Shown piece after piece: positions 21,864-36,554 of a DNA stretch of 64,000 nucleotides. A program made the position numbers and the translations under genes. Under the pieces are notes generated by a model that was given only the letters and a program-made list of their open reading frames with translations, made no database searches and was not told where the DNA came from. The stretch spans positions 62,001 through 126,000 of the forward strand of contig NZ_MWQI01000008.1 in assembly GCF_002210345.1 (NCBI RefSeq), read 5' to 3'. Each line of letters starts with the position of its first letter. Position 1 is the first letter of the stretch. Origin of the DNA: Fibrobacter sp. UWB4. GTDB lineage: Bacteria; Fibrobacterota; Fibrobacteria; Fibrobacterales; Fibrobacteraceae.

Positions 21864-22910
21864 ATGGAAAGACAATCAAATTTTGAATTATTGAGAATTA
21901 TACTAATAATATTCGTAATAGCTTTACATTACAATTCTAGCATAGCATTTTCATTTATTAACGAAGCGTCCTTCATAAACAAAGCTTTTCTATACAGCAT
22001 TGAATCCTTTTCATTATGCGCTGTTAATGCGTTCGTATGTTTATCAGGATTTTTCTTATCCGGCAAAAGTAAAATAAACATTAGCAAGATTATCCATTTA
22101 TTCCTTATATTTTTTGCATTTAGAATATTTGTTTATATACCAACTTCTATAGTTCATCATAATTTTCAAATAAAAGAAGTAATACTATGTTTCTTTCCCA
22201 ACAACTATTACGCCAATTTATATAGTGTAGTCTTCCTACTTTCTCCTTTTTTAAACCTAATCACAAACAATCTAACACAGAAAAAAAATAGGACATTTCT
22301 CATATTACTAATATTCCTATTTTCAATACTCCCAACTATTACAGATTACATATATCCAACACTTTTCAACAACAACCAGCCAACATCAATATCAGCAATT
22401 TCAAAATTTGGGAATGGACGAGGATTCACCCTAATAAACTTCATTTTACTTTATTACATAGGAAGTTATATAGCAAGAATGAAATACAAATCGATTAACA
22501 AGCCACTATTCATTTACCTTTTTTCATCCCTATCAATATTTTTATTAATGTTCATAAACCGTCCCGCTGTAATTTCATACTGCAACATATTTGTAATATT
22601 ACAAGCAGCATCATTAATCATTCTTTTTTCTAATATTAATCTTCAAAGCAAAGCTGTCAATTTTATAGCCAAAAGTGTTTGGGGTATATACGTCATACAC
22701 ATTTCATTTATCGAAATCTATTGTAAATATTTCCGATTTAACATAAATGATAGTTTATCATCTCTATCAATACACTTTTCGACCTGCATAATTTCTGTTT
22801 TTATTTGTTCCCTGTTATGGGATAAAATATGTACAATCATTTTAAAGCCAATAGAACAACTCTTTAGCAAAATCAAATTATTCAACAGATTCATTAGCGT
22901 AAAAGAGTAA
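21864..22910 (+). CDS. Acyltransferase 3 family membrane protein, plus strand
   Basis: A 348-residue, very hydrophobic, very AT-rich protein with about ten membrane segments. RQSNFELLRIILIIFVIALH is the N-terminal family pattern with the conserved His, followed by VNAFVCLSGFFLSGK. It is a likely O-acetyltransferase for the surface glycan. AAGGA precedes the ATG. The frame is intact. It is one of only two frames in the locus on the plus strand. Confidence 0.82.
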   Translation: MERQSNFELLRIILIIFVIALHYNSSIAFSFINEASFINKAFLYSIESFSLCAVNAFVCLSGFFLSGKSKINISKIIHLFLIFFAFRIFVYIPTSIVHHNFQIKEVILCFFPNNYYANLYSVVFLLSPFLNLITNNLTQKKNRTFLILLIFLFSILPTITDYIYPTLFNNNQPTSISAISKFGNGRGFTLINFILLYYIGSYIARMKYKSINKPLFIYLFSSLSIFLLMFINRPAVISYCNIFVILQAASLIILFSNINLQSKAVNFIAKSVWGIYVIHISFIEIYCKYFRFNINDSLSSLSIHFSTCIISVFICSLLWDKICTIILKPIEQLFSKIKLFNRFISVKE

Positions 22911-27548: not shown

Positions 27549-29354
27549 CTACGGTCTCCAATAAATATTTTCTGCAACAACCTTAGCAGGGTTTCCTGCG
27601 ACAATTGAATGTGCAGGAACATTGCTTGTCACAACACTATTCGCTGAAATCACAGCACCATCACCGATTGTCACGCCCTTCATAATTTGAGAGCCAGAAC
27701 AAATCCAAACATAATTGCCAATAATAACAGGTGCCTTGTCCTTGTATCCGACCTGAATAATCTTGTGCCCACCGTTATTATCACGAATCCAGACATCACG
27801 ACCAATGCGGGTGTGGTCTCCTATCCAAATTTTTTCGGAACAGACAATTTTTAAACCCATATTGGTCGCACCAGGTCCAAACCTCAAAAGTGCATTTTTG
27901 AAAATTTGTATATCGCTTGTTGTCTTGATGAAGTTTTTACCATCGATTTGGAGCGTTCCGCCATCTTCAATCAGAAGAGCCGTTTCTTCTTTTGTCTTGA
28001 AGTTCCGTTTCTCGCCGAATGTAAACGCGCCTTTGTTCACTACAATCTTTGCCGAACCGCGTAAATCAATGGCACAATGGCTCTTGACTGTGAAAATATC
28101 GCCATTTAAAATATTCGCCTTGACATGCTTATTAAGGAAACAATAATGCAAAGTTCTTAATACATCAAACGGCTTTTTCTTGTTGTGATATAAAAATCTA
28201 AGTAAGTTTTTAATTTTAGACTTGAAAGTCACCTTGTGCGTATGCCCTGGAAAATACTTGTTTGCAACTTCATCAAAGGGCATTGTATCCATATCTTTGA
28301 ACAGAGCATTTCGGTCTATTGGAGGATACTTGACCGGCTCAAGAAGAGCAGAACGATTACCTGGCAAAATATCATTTACAGTAAACTCGCGACAAACGAG
28401 TTTACTTCTTATCTTTTCAAAAAACGCTTCTCCTTTTGGAGTATTGAGCATCACCATCGATGTACCAAGATTCTGCTCCAAGTCGGGAGCCACCTTCTCA
28501 ACGCCCCAAAAATCGCCAAGTGTGATGTCTGAATTACGCGGAATTTCCTTAAATTTACAATCATAGCAAGATGGGCGTTCAAACATGTTCCAATGATAGC
28601 CGCGACGGTAATGGTCATCGTGGCCTTCACCGTAATATTCCTTGCCATTGTCAAAAACCACTTTACGCGCTAGACTATGCCAACCATGTTCTTTGTTCTT
28701 TGCCTTGACATAGACAACCTTGCCGCCATATTGCTTTTCAAGCATATCCATGTATTTACGGTATGCCTTAGGTGAATTCGTCGCGCGACAAAGGAAATCA
28801 ACAACAATCAGATTTTCATAATCTTTTCCGAGATAGCTGCGCAAAGCACCCATTTGGCAAGGCGAACCACAAGCCAAAACCTTTTCACCAGCAACAAGGA
28901 GTCTTTTGATTTCTTTATAAAGGCCGATTGCGGAACTTTGAACATATTTGCTGCTGCGTAAACGTGCCAAATCGCTTTTGTCATTTGATATAAAGTTGCA
29001 TACAGTCAAGTCTTCGTTTTGGACAGCGCCACTTACATATCCGCCATCTTTGTACATTGCGTTGGCTAGTGCCGAAAAAATTCCACCGGAAGTGCTATCG
29101 AAGCGGATTGCAATGTTTTTATGGAATCCACCAACAACTTTGGGCGGATTCAGTTTTTCTGCGGATTTAACTTTGTCCATATTCTGGAGCGGGCAAACAT
29201 TGTTGCACATGCCGCAGTTTACGCACTTTTCCAAATCGACTTTCGGATACCAGAATCCTTCTTCATCTTGTAGGAATGAAATTGCCCCCTTGGGGCAAAT
29301 ATCACCACAAGCATTGCAACCGCAGCATTGTTCTTTATTGGTTATCTGAATCAT
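27549..29354 (-). CDS. FrhB-like iron-sulfur protein fused to a hexapeptide-repeat acyltransferase
   Basis: A 601-residue fusion. Residues 1-60 hold two 4Fe-4S motifs (CCGCNACGDICPKG, CVNCGMCNNVCP). Residues about 70-390 match the coenzyme F420 hydrogenase beta subunit-like family (FDSTSGGIFSALA, ACGSPCQMGALR, CYDCKF), found in many polysaccharide loci near pyruvyl transferases. Residues about 410-601 are a left-handed beta-helix acetyltransferase (IGDHTRIGRDVWIRD, MKGVTIGDGAVISANSVV, IVAGNPAKVV). The ATG overlaps the AMP-ligase stop (ATGA). Inferred role: redox change of, and transfer of, a group activated by the adjacent ligase and ACP. Confidence 0.85.
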   Translation of the reverse strand: MIQITNKEQCCGCNACGDICPKGAISFLQDEEGFWYPKVDLEKCVNCGMCNNVCPLQNMDKVKSAEKLNPPKVVGGFHKNIAIRFDSTSGGIFSALANAMYKDGGYVSGAVQNEDLTVCNFISNDKSDLARLRSSKYVQSSAIGLYKEIKRLLVAGEKVLACGSPCQMGALRSYLGKDYENLIVVDFLCRATNSPKAYRKYMDMLEKQYGGKVVYVKAKNKEHGWHSLARKVVFDNGKEYYGEGHDDHYRRGYHWNMFERPSCYDCKFKEIPRNSDITLGDFWGVEKVAPDLEQNLGTSMVMLNTPKGEAFFEKIRSKLVCREFTVNDILPGNRSALLEPVKYPPIDRNALFKDMDTMPFDEVANKYFPGHTHKVTFKSKIKNLLRFLYHNKKKPFDVLRTLHYCFLNKHVKANILNGDIFTVKSHCAIDLRGSAKIVVNKGAFTFGEKRNFKTKEETALLIEDGGTLQIDGKNFIKTTSDIQIFKNALLRFGPGATNMGLKIVCSEKIWIGDHTRIGRDVWIRDNNGGHKIIQVGYKDKAPVIIGNYVWICSGSQIMKGVTIGDGAVISANSVVTSNVPAHSIVAGNPAKVVAENIYWRP

Positions 29355-30802
29355 TTAAGCAACCCGCGTTGAACTTTTCCGCTAGATGTTTTGGGGATTT
29401 CGTCAACCCACTCATAAACGGTCGGAATCTTATAACCTTCCAGTTTTCCCAACAGAGCAGAAGCTATTACTTCAAACGTTGGGCGCACTACATTCGGTTT
29501 AGCCACAAGACATGCTTTCACGACCTCGCCAAGAACTTCACCCGGATCAGGTACAGCAATGCAGGCAGATTCAGCAATTTCGGGAATCAAGGCTAGCTGC
29601 TCTTCAACCTCAATAGGGCTTACTTTTTTCCCACCTACGTTGATGAGTTCCTTTTTGCGACTTTTCAGAAATATGTAACCATCAGAGTTTTTGGTTCCCC
29701 AGTCACCGGTTCTAAAGTAATCTCCGAAGAAAACATCGCTGTTTGGATGGTTGAGATAGCCCAGCGTTACATGCTCACCGTTAACGCAAATCTCACCTTC
29801 TTCTCCTAATGGCAGCATATTGCCTGATTCGTCAAAGACTTGAATATCCGTGTTTGGAGAGGCCTTGCCAACACTGTTTAAAGCATTTGCATCTTCGTGA
29901 AATTCCATAAATGCGGAACGAGAAGCCTCGGTAAGACCATAGTGCATGGTTACGCGGGTGTTTGGTAAAAGCGAAGCTAGTTCTTTTTTGTCACTTTCGG
30001 AAAAATAGGCACTGCCCATTTCTATGTACTTGAGTTGGGACGCATAATTGCCTAGCTGGTTGCCACTCATCTTTTGCAGGAATTTCCAGCTTGAAGGTAC
30101 CATCGTAAAACCTGTTACGCCATCTTCTTCAAAGCTTTTGTAAATACGTTTGACGTTCACAAAACTTCCGAGCAAAATCAATGTTTGCCCATTGGACAAA
30201 CAACAACGAACGCGTCCGAGTCCAAAGGAATGACTGATGGGAAGTGCTAGCAACTCAACATCATCGGTTTTATTGCGAATGAAATCATTGATATTTCGAG
30301 CTGCTGCCGCTTCGTTTTTAAACGTCAGGGGAACTCCTTTGGGTGTTCCCGTTGTACCTGTCGTAAAAAGAATGTCAGCCACAGAGTCCATATCGGGGAA
30401 AGCAACCTCCGATTGAAGTCCGCTTTCTTGGAAGGAAAAATCCTTGAGAGATTTATTTACCCAAGGTCCTCGAATTTTATCAAAACCGATGACAACAAAA
30501 GGATTTAGTGTTTGGGCAATAAAATCAAAGCGGGTCGGATTTGTTTCTGGGTCAATGGGGGCTACTTTAAGTCCTGCCAAATGTGCTCCGAAATAAGCGT
30601 ATGCAAATTCAACCTGTTTTCCTGCAGCCAAGATAACGCATGAGCCATTTTGATAATTTGGCATGCCCTCAAAATATTTTTTTGCATCGAGGCAATGATT
30701 TACCAATTCACCATACGATACTGTTGTTTTACCGCTTTTTAAAGCGATTTTTTGAGGATTTTGCTTGGCAAACTCAAATATGGACTGCTCAACCGAAATC
30801 AT
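29351..30802 (-). CDS. AMP-dependent acyl/aryl ligase
   Basis: An ANL-superfamily adenylating enzyme of 483 residues that activates a carboxylic acid with ATP. The phosphate loop is FTTGTTGTPKGVPLTFKN, then MHYGLTEASRS, the hinge GDYFRTGDWGTK and the C-terminal catalytic Lys in TSSGKVQRG. The substrate is unknown. It overlaps the upstream ACP by 4 bp and the downstream FrhB-LbH fusion by 4 bp, which ties the three into one unit. It most likely loads the acid onto that ACP. Confidence 0.9.
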   Translation of the reverse strand: MISVEQSIFEFAKQNPQKIALKSGKTTVSYGELVNHCLDAKKYFEGMPNYQNGSCVILAAGKQVEFAYAYFGAHLAGLKVAPIDPETNPTRFDFIAQTLNPFVVIGFDKIRGPWVNKSLKDFSFQESGLQSEVAFPDMDSVADILFTTGTTGTPKGVPLTFKNEAAAARNINDFIRNKTDDVELLALPISHSFGLGRVRCCLSNGQTLILLGSFVNVKRIYKSFEEDGVTGFTMVPSSWKFLQKMSGNQLGNYASQLKYIEMGSAYFSESDKKELASLLPNTRVTMHYGLTEASRSAFMEFHEDANALNSVGKASPNTDIQVFDESGNMLPLGEEGEICVNGEHVTLGYLNHPNSDVFFGDYFRTGDWGTKNSDGYIFLKSRKKELINVGGKKVSPIEVEEQLALIPEIAESACIAVPDPGEVLGEVVKACLVAKPNVVRPTFEVIASALLGKLEGYKIPTVYEWVDEIPKTSSGKVQRGLLK

Positions 30803-31029
30803 TTTGAGGCGAGTTTTTGGGTGAGGGTGACAAGATCGGAAATATCTTCTAAATCCATGATGTCGGACTGACTGAACTTAATGGAAAACTCTTTTTCAAG
30901 GTTTGCAATGATATTCAAGTGATTCATTGAAGTCCATTCTGGCATATCACCAATGCCACAATCGAGTTCTATAGAGGACGGTTCAACTTCAAGAACTTTA
31001 GCAATGACGTTAATAATCTGTTCTTCCAT
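30799..31029 (-). CDS. Dedicated acyl carrier protein of the polysaccharide locus
   Basis: A 76-residue carrier from the ATG at 31029 (a TTG five codons upstream is less likely; GGGTAG lies about 10 bp before the ATG). The phosphopantetheine Ser is in PEWTSMNHLNI, the WxSxxH form of carriers that partner with stand-alone ligases rather than fatty acid synthase. Its stop overlaps the ligase start. It differs from the housekeeping-side ACP at 56-301. Confidence 0.88.
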   Translation of the reverse strand: MEEQIINVIAKVLEVEPSSIELDCGIGDMPEWTSMNHLNIIANLEKEFSIKFSQSDIMDLEDISDLVTLTQKLASK

Positions 31030-31133: not shown

Positions 31134-32089
31134 TTATTTTACCAAAAAAAGTTTAATTTTTCGTACAGCGCACGCAAAAAAGACATCCAACAACAGAACC
31201 AAAGCTACTATTATCGATGTTGATGAGTACGATTTATCAAAAGCCAAGTTATCCATAACTAGATAAATTGGAATATACTGGATAATGAACATTTCTAGAG
31301 ATATTTGACTGAAGAAACTTACAATGGTACTCATACGAGCACCCCCCCCCCCTCCCTATATGGCAAAATAAACATCAACATAAACATGATTGATGAATAT
31401 AAATAGGGATCAAGCCCATGTCCTAAGGGCAAATTCATAATGCACAATAGAATACCAACACCAGCAAAAGCGTGCCATCTGACATATTTTTCTTTTATCG
31501 AGCTATTAGCCAATGCAAATACCATTCCAACAATAAATGCAGGGCATTTATCATACCTCCAGTGAGCAAATCCAACATAAGGAGCTATAACACAATAGGC
31601 AATCACTAAAGCCGATAAAAAAAATACCTTTATAATTGTACTTGATTTCACATATTTGAATACTATGAAAAAGAAAACATAAAATAGAGCCAATATGTAG
31701 ATAAACCAGGATGTCGGTATGAACGCAAGAAGTCCCACAGATTTCAATAGCTCAATTTGGTCAATTCCTTCAATGAATCTATAAATCACAAATAAAATGA
31801 AAGTAATCAAATATGGTATAAATAGCTTTGGAATAGAACGCTTCAGAAAGCCATTAATATAGTCAGATTTCTTGATGTACGATATAACAAGTCCATAACC
31901 AGACATGGCAAAAAAAAGATACATCACCCAAATTCCAATCCAACTAAATATACCTATACCAGGAAGATGATATTTTTCTAAATGATGAATGATAATAAGG
32001 AAAGGGAATGCAGCTTTTAATATATTAGTCTTTTGCTTGTCATAGTCGTATAAAGGATGGTTCAAAAAAGCATTTACAGAATCAAGCAT
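31134..32089 (-). pseudogene. Acyltransferase 3 family gene interrupted at a G11 tract (phase-variable candidate)
   Basis: The main frame (32089 to 31331, 252 codons) has an N-terminal family pattern LKAAFPFLIIIHHLEKYHL and eight or so membrane segments, then runs into the G11 run and stops as YREGGGVLV. The following frame (31334 to 31134) supplies MSTIVSFFSQISLEMFIIQY and the last membrane segment. Twelve or nine G residues would join them. So the current state is truncated (off) and a one-base gain restores about 320 residues. The start overlaps the pyruvyl transferase stop by 8 bp. Confidence 0.82.
31342..31352. repeat. Homopolymer tract G11 (C11 on the plus strand)
   Basis: Eleven consecutive C on the plus strand, inside the acyltransferase reading frame at the point where the frame is lost. 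It is the longest G/C run in the window and stands in AT-rich surroundings. Confidence 0.95.
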
Positions 32090-33146
32090 TAAGGGCTCCT
32101 TTTAACCAATTCAATGATTTTTGCCGTTCGTTTGCTAAAGTCGCATTAATTTCGCTCCAATCAAAGGATTCTTGATCTTTGGAAATTCCAAGCAACTCAA
32201 AAAGTGATTCAAAGCGAGCGTTCCCACGGAATTCGTTAAGGAATAGTTTTACAGGCTTGTTAAATATCAATGAAAAAACAAAACCATGGTAGGAGTCGGT
32301 TACAATAAACTTGGCATCATTAAAATTGCGAAGCCATTGCTCTATTGATATTTCGTGCAAACCGGTGATAAAAGACTTCATATTTCGCGAATTTGCTTCT
32401 CGCTCAATAAAGTCCATTTTTTCTTGCGTAGAATCCAATATGTAGCAGAACATTTCTCCATCCATAGGAGTTGTATCTGCATTTTTTATCACATCCAGAT
32501 AGTCTTCTTTTTTTAAGAGTAATGTGGAATCAACAAGCCATTCAGCCTTTGGGCTTGTCCAACCATAACTATCCAACACATTCAAAGCAGACTTTTCGCG
32601 AACAGATACCGCAGAAAATTGATTATAGTATTTCCTTAGTGATTCTGCTTCTGCTTTATCCAATTCGAGGTCACTATTGCCCAAAGAAGCTGCATAGGCA
32701 ATTTTTTTTTCAGTTGAAGGTAAATAATCCCATAGGAACATTTTTAAAGGAAACGGCTGTACAATTTGTTTTCTCCAAACCTGATCGGATCCTACAATGT
32801 AGGCATCAAAGAAATTGTATTGTTTTAGGACATTACAGTCATTTACTGGTTCTGTATGTTTTATGTATCTGTCATAGAAGGGCTTAATTCGCTTGTAGTT
32901 AGAGATGTTTTGTTTTTGAGCATACAATTCAGCAAAAACACGCACCTTCTTCCGAAACACAAAACGCAGAATTAATCTTTTAATAGTAAATTTAATAAAA
33001 TCCGTTTTCGAAAGACTAAAATTACGCATCGTCAATAAATGCGTTACCTCATGCCCCATATTTTTTAATACCTTAACAAGAGCAAATCTTTGCAGATTGC
33101 CGCCATAGTTGTCATCTATAGGCAAATTTAGCAGAGCTATTTTCAT
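32082..33146 (-). CDS. Polysaccharide pyruvyl transferase family protein
   Basis: A 354-residue member of the CsaB/PssM-like family that adds a pyruvate ketal from phosphoenolpyruvate to a sugar. Visible: NYGGNLQRFALVKVLKNMGH at the start, VGSDQVWRKQ, AYAASLGNSDL and the late TDSYHGFVFSLIF with the family His. Such genes often accompany FrhB-like proteins, as here. The ATG overlaps the next upstream gene by 4 bp. Confidence 0.9.
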   Translation of the reverse strand: MKIALLNLPIDDNYGGNLQRFALVKVLKNMGHEVTHLLTMRNFSLSKTDFIKFTIKRLILRFVFRKKVRVFAELYAQKQNISNYKRIKPFYDRYIKHTEPVNDCNVLKQYNFFDAYIVGSDQVWRKQIVQPFPLKMFLWDYLPSTEKKIAYAASLGNSDLELDKAEAESLRKYYNQFSAVSVREKSALNVLDSYGWTSPKAEWLVDSTLLLKKEDYLDVIKNADTTPMDGEMFCYILDSTQEKMDFIEREANSRNMKSFITGLHEISIEQWLRNFNDAKFIVTDSYHGFVFSLIFNKPVKLFLNEFRGNARFESLFELLGISKDQESFDWSEINATLANERQKSLNWLKGALNA

Positions 33147-35548: not shown

Positions 35549-36554
35549 TCATTTTACCTTCCAATACCTATATAGCCAAGCCATAAAAACAGTAACAATT
35601 AAAGACACCATCATAAATAGCAACGGATTTTCCACTGTAAACATTTTTTTTACTCAGCAAAATCATAGGTATTCTTTGATAAATGTATAACGGAAACAAA
35701 TTAATTCCTAACCAGCATAAAATACTGTTAGAAATTTTGATTTTCATCGTTATTTGAACAACAATAAAAGCAAATAATACTGATAAAATATTGTACTTTA
35801 GCGATATACAATCTGATTTGAAAGGAAATAACACACAGAAAAATAGAACGAAAGTAAATAAAATACTCCAATAGTGTTTTTTCCATAAGCAAACAATCAT
35901 TTGCTTATTCCTCGAAAATAAAATTCCTGCGGGATAAGATAATATAGTGTTATACCAGCATTCAGCCTTTCCTGAAAATTTTAGAATTGCAGCAACAACA
36001 ATGATTAAAAATAATCCCCAAAAATATTTTTCTTTCCTTATAAACAAATATGTTATTGTATAACAAATTAGAATTACAAAAATATACCAGTTGCTATTTC
36101 CAACACTAACCCATCCAATAAAACTCAATAAGACTTGAGTAGAATTTATGGGGATATCTAATAACAAATCAACTATAATGAAACAAAGAACTGCTATATC
36201 AAAATTTAACAGAGTTGGCAAAATACGATTTCTTGGCATTTTTGCTATGTAAACATCACCCTTGTTTTTGATAGCTTCCATAACTCCATAACCAGAATAA
36301 AAAAGAAACAAAACTACAATAAGCTGACCTAGCTCCCAATTTATGGAAAGAACTGTTGAATCACCGAATGAATTAAATTTATAACCACTTTTTACAACAT
36401 ACTGCAATGAATGTCGTAAAAAAACTAAAAGAATAAACAAACCCTTTATAGAATTTGTCTGCTCTCTTTCAAGAAAATCATCAAAATATCTGTTATTTGC
36501 TATTTTGATCTTGTACAAGCATAAAGCAGCAATCAGTAAAAGAAAGACAATCAT
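35549..36554 (-). pseudogene. Acyltransferase family gene frameshifted at an A8 run near its 3' end
   Basis: A 328-codon frame (36554 to 35568) with ten or so membrane segments and the SIKGLFILLVFLRH pattern. It ends with a non-hydrophobic tail (SGKSVAIYDGVFNCYC) that does not fit the family. At the A8 run 35644-35651 (codons LLSKKN) removal of one A gives MFTVENPLLFMMVSLIVTVF and WLYRYWKVK, a normal last membrane helix, with a stop at 35549-35551. So the present protein has a swapped C-terminus. Probably switchable, decaying, or a sequencing error. Confidence 0.75.

Follow-up and report, generated by a model that had tools for sequence, protein, structure and literature searches.

A G11 tract in an AT3 acyltransferase gene of a Fibrobacter surface-polysaccharide locus: a probable slipped-strand contingency gene

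In an AT-rich surface-polysaccharide locus of this Fibrobacter genome, the reading frame of a membrane acyltransferase of the AT3 family breaks at a run of eleven G. Is this run a switch, or the mark of a gene that is being lost? Judging from the structure of the gene and from related genes in the genus, we consider it likely that the gene is a slipped-strand contingency (phase-variable) gene. The window referred to below is the whole 64-kb stretch of DNA that was analysed.

The G11 tract and the two frames of the acyltransferase gene

The elements of the gene are the following:

31331-32089, minus strand: AT3 membrane acyltransferase, main frame of 252 amino acids (PF01757, 48.2 bits, profile positions 6-250)
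31342-31352, minus strand (C11 on the plus strand): G11 tract at the frame transition
31331-31334, minus strand: ATGA, in which the main-frame stop overlaps the ATG of a 66-amino-acid tail, 7 nt past the G tract
31134-31341, minus strand: acyltransferase C-terminus, read in the next frame and bearing the last strong hydrophobic helix (gain in PF01757 score when joined; aligned to intact homologues)

The stop codon of the main ORF ends 11 bases beyond the tract, and the next frame is free of stops from the tract down to 31134. Joining the two frames, with X at the tract, raised the PF01757 score to 63.0 bits and extended the match to profile positions 6-314. The control, in which the main ORF was joined to the wrong frame, scored 48.1 bits and thus showed no gain. 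The curated cut-off of PF01757 (31) was exceeded both by the main ORF alone and by the joined protein. BLAST aligned the protein with intact homologues of 357-369 amino acids from the genus and the family, and several of these alignments extend across the tract. Because the profile score rises only with the right frame and homologues align across the tract, the two frames belong to one gene.

The closest homologues have no Gly run at the tract site, and the tract therefore looks like a small Gly insertion between membrane segments. Apart from the tract we found no break in the gene, and its coding capacity is intact on both sides. The first membrane helix has a His close to its end, a residue generally regarded as catalytic, and six to eight other AT3 sequences have a His aligned with it. 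The tail encoded in the next frame contains one strong hydrophobic helix (residues 291-309 of the joined protein) and a conserved segment ahead of it.

The first-pass annotation had described a gene spanning 31134-32089 whose main frame stops right after eleven G, and both the span and the position of the stop were confirmed. Its frame arithmetic, by which twelve or nine G would restore a full protein, is correct. It had equated the next frame with the missing last membrane helix; the helix is there, but the tail is slightly more than that, since it includes the conserved segment. It had also called the gene switched off. The frame is indeed truncated, but the off state is uncertain given the ATG that overlaps the stop.

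The tract is unusual for its surroundings. The gene has 32% GC, a composition that leads one to expect about 2.3e-5 G-runs this long in it; for the surrounding 5 kb a first-order Markov model predicts 2.4e-4. The second-longest G-run in the gene is 3, and no other G or C run in the window reaches a length of 9. The 3.58-Mb genome, a draft of 18 contigs, contains six G/C tracts of at least 9, G11 included. By a rough estimate, six such tracts are not unusual genome-wide at about 50% GC, whereas G11 within a 32% GC gene stands out.

None of the other five genomic tracts looks like a switch of a surface gene: four are apparently intergenic, and the fifth is within a dinD-like gene that is broken elsewhere. 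This last tract (L022, contig C7, near position 109841) is a C11 run in the coding strand of the gene, which was recognized by eye.

The polysaccharide locus and its second frame-broken AT3 gene

The Pfam matches around the gene define the following context:

14605-53198, minus strand (boundaries approximate), about 38 kb: AT-rich surface-polysaccharide locus
21864-22910, plus strand: one of the four AT3 genes of the locus
29351-30802, minus strand: AMP-forming acyl/amino-acid ligase (PF00501 and PF13193), a possible supplier of the activated group
30799-31029, minus strand: acyl-carrier-like protein (PP-binding; PF00550, 27.8 bits), downstream of the AT3 gene
32082-33146, minus strand: polysaccharide pyruvyl transferase (PF04230, 107.8 bits), sharing its last bases with the start of the AT3 gene

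Besides its four AT3 genes the locus contains, by Pfam, glycosyltransferases, a Wzy-like protein, LicD and an initiating sugar transferase. Acylation of a glycan is the natural reading of the AT3 gene, because it adjoins the carrier and ligase genes within a polysaccharide locus. From this context, the enzyme probably acylates the glycan made by the locus. The GC content of the gene and the Pfam content of the locus also agree with the first-pass description of a G11 run in an AT-rich gene of a surface glycan locus.

Another AT3 gene of the same locus appears to be broken as well:

35568-36554, minus strand: second AT3 gene, annotated frame with a poor C-terminus and the last helix lost (PF01757, 34.1 bits)
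35644-35651, minus strand: A8 run at the likely frame transition (sequence and homologue comparison)

When the second gene was read into the other frame the PF01757 score was 37.4 bits, and the match reached profile position 324. The tail in this other frame matches homologues of 44-46% identity to their ends. At eight bases the A run falls below the minimum of 10 set for poly-A/T in Campylobacter (PMC6321876) and is too short for a typical poly-A switch. Decay is one possible cause of the break; slow switching and slippage of the transcript are others. A second frame-broken AT3 gene in the locus slightly weakens the case for a switch at G11. Of the earlier label, a classic slipped-strand contingency gene, the structural signs that can be read from the sequence stand, and the A8-broken AT3 gene nearby leaves room for gene decay.

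Poly-G tracts in other Fibrobacter genomes

G runs of at least 9 were present in all of the genomes sampled in the genus (61/61). The surroundings of 118 tracts were inspected in 26 genomes representing 26 species. The sample comprised all tracts of at least 9 from six genomes, all tracts of at least 10 from 16, and some from four more, each full set being complete except for one tract at a contig end. Tracts were assigned to genes by ORF geometry and Pfam, partly by eye. Codon usage proved unusable for recognizing tracts flanked by coding sequence, as it gave no reliable result on AT-rich genes and overlooked the index AT3 gene.

The majority of the poly-G tracts in the genus are intergenic. 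Among the in-gene tracts with family support, glycan acyl/acetyltransferases stand out with five cases: the index gene and the following four, all in polysaccharide loci.

L069 (G003): AT3 gene, G10 in frame
L202 (G092): AT3 gene, G10 in frame
L081 (G074): hexapeptide acetyltransferase, G10 in frame
L206 (G029): hexapeptide acetyltransferase, broken exactly at G10

All five genes have a pyruvyl transferase and other glycan genes nearby. With the index gene excluded, the probability of finding four acyl/acetyltransferases among about 20 in-gene tracts is about 1e-5; for this figure each genome was assumed to have 2,900 genes, of which about 7.6 are AT3 genes (mean of 18 genomes) and 14 are hexapeptide genes. 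The three AT3 tracts lie at different residues of the protein (247, 155 and 201), and were therefore probably gained independently. We rejected the possibility that AT3 genes carry such tracts in general, since thirty other congeneric AT3 loci contained no G or C run of at least 8; the feature is sparse.

Tracts were also found in genes of other families:

L082 and L097: Fib_succ_major lipoproteins, tract in the gene
L200 (G009), near position 2500: UDP-glucose-dehydrogenase-like gene (by eye), C10 at a frame break
L216: eCIS-core protein, tract in the gene
L091: GH9 enzyme, tract in the gene
L062: large ORF with an in-gene tract and a weak, sub-cut-off peptidase match only

Counting L179 and L191 with L082 and L097, poly-G tracts lie inside or beside Fib_succ_major (FISUMP) lipoprotein genes in several species. 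It is conceivable that this genus of fibre-degrading gut bacteria has a scattered poly-G switch system, which would have entered glycan acyl/acetyltransferase genes repeatedly and independently, and Fib_succ_major lipoprotein genes as well. Surface acylation would then flip randomly in an organism that is no pathogen, and phages may be the selective pressure. We rate the chances of this wider proposal as about even.

Two genomes share the flanks of an intergenic tract that is G13 in one (L174) and G11 in the other (L101); a G10 tract (L070) has a similar flank. Other intergenic pairs with near-identical flanks are of equal length in different species (L194/L199, L178/L197 and L193/L195). For the index gene, the 80 congeners and 168 genomes of the phylum yielded no orthologue above 36% identity in which another tract length could be read, and the same locus was not found in another strain among the genome contigs searched. 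The orthologues of the tract genes L069 and L081 were too divergent for a comparison of tracts.

Slippage, its alternatives and known systems

In the mechanism that we propose, slippage of DNA polymerase in the G11 tract would alter the tract length, presumably in a reversible manner, and only one length class in three would leave the C-terminal membrane part readable. Some cells of the population would then produce the full AT3 acyltransferase, and the others a truncated, probably inactive enzyme. The enzyme would acylate the polysaccharide of the locus, either with acetyl or with a group that the adjacent ligase and carrier protein activate. Switching would thus alter the acylation of the surface glycan, and the benefit may perhaps be escape from phages or other glycan binders. 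Several features of a contingency gene are present: the repeat lies within the ORF, has a length sufficient for slippage and exceeds chance expectation, its length decides between a full and a truncated product, and the locus, by its Pfam content, points to a surface function. Campylobacter genes are switched by runs of at least eight G (PMC6321876). The case for a switch is strengthened by the recurrence of G10 tracts in glycan acyl/acetyltransferase genes of congeners, one of which is broken at the tract.

The same break could have arisen by ordinary gene loss, in which a single indel in a long G tract inactivated the gene in this strain and decay would follow; the tract would be slippery but not selected as a switch. 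The broken second AT3 gene of the locus fits this explanation, as do the fast turnover of glycan loci, visible in the lack of a close orthologue in the 80 congeners, and the pneumococcal gene wciG, in which homopolymer frameshifts define serotypes (PMC11934437). However, the gene is otherwise intact on either side of the tract, and gene loss explains neither why so improbable a run as G11 stands in this gene nor why AT3 and acetyltransferase genes of other species repeatedly have G10 in frame. We regard it as unlikely. The length of the run might also have been miscalled, in assembly or sequencing, in a gene that is actually intact. Long G runs are hard to call, and the genome is a draft, but of 66 coding homopolymers in the window, 64, each 7-9 bases long, are in long ORFs that look unbroken. 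This count speaks against homopolymer miscalling in general, which is unlikely, and an error at this particular run is, in our estimate, very improbable. Whatever the exact count, a G run of about this length must be present, and a miscount would still be compatible with a switch.

A similarly slight chance is given to repair of the frame with the DNA unchanged. The transcript could slip on G11, or translation could re-initiate at the ATGA, with the tract as ribosome-binding site, to give a two-piece enzyme. The overlap of stop and ATG and the G-rich stretch 7 nt ahead of the ATG are consistent with this, and in congeners tracts occur just before start codons, at 5 nt in L065 and at 6 nt in L096. 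Against it, the homologues are single proteins, and the AT3 tracts of congeners are in frame, where repair is needless. As an observation apart, G runs of 9-12 shortly upstream of start codons or of lipoprotein or glycan genes (L065, L096, L076, L193 and L195) could affect the start of translation.

The preferred reading, a length switch in the G11 tract, has parallels in several known systems. One is oafA of Haemophilus influenzae, a phase-variable AT3 gene for O-acetylation of the LOS (reviewed in PMC9558356). There too an AT3 enzyme acts on a surface glycan and a simple sequence repeat lies in the gene, but the repeat is a tetranucleotide, switching was shown experimentally and the organism is a host-associated pathogen, whereas the repeat described here is poly-G and is known from sequence. 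The poly-G contingency genes of Campylobacter resemble it in the repeat, with G runs of about 8-11 within ORFs of surface-structure genes and switching of the frame (PMC6321876). They number dozens per genome, are mostly within ORFs and have shown variability, whereas Fibrobacter has few in-gene tracts per genome, read from sequence. In wciG of pneumococcus (33G/33H, 35B/35D), homopolymer frameshifts in a capsule acetyltransferase gene likewise change O-acetylation (PMC11934437), but the homopolymers are short and lie at several sites, the loss variants are fixed as serotypes, and there is no dedicated tract. Acetylation of the O-antigen by the AT3 enzyme OafB of Salmonella Typhi is also phase-variable (PMC9558356); control of oafB is epigenetic and acts upstream of the gene, which has no in-gene repeat.

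No report of phase variation in Fibrobacter was found in the literature searched, most subscription papers being outside its coverage. As far as we could find, phase variation of AT3 genes, poly-G contingency and homopolymer frameshifts in acetyltransferase genes, each a known feature, would be combined here in a genus for which no such report was found. To our knowledge, phase-variable acylation of glycans is known mainly from pathogens. If the switch reading is true, the repeated independent gain of poly-G tracts by acyl/acetyltransferase genes in a commensal, fibre-degrading genus would mean that selection favours the same bet-hedging in the absence of infection. Cells with particular tract lengths would then be expected to be selected by phages and other glycan-binding agents.

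The longest runs seen in the genus, G17 at L182 (G25, contig C14) and G15 at L213 (G068, contig C3), are apparently intergenic.
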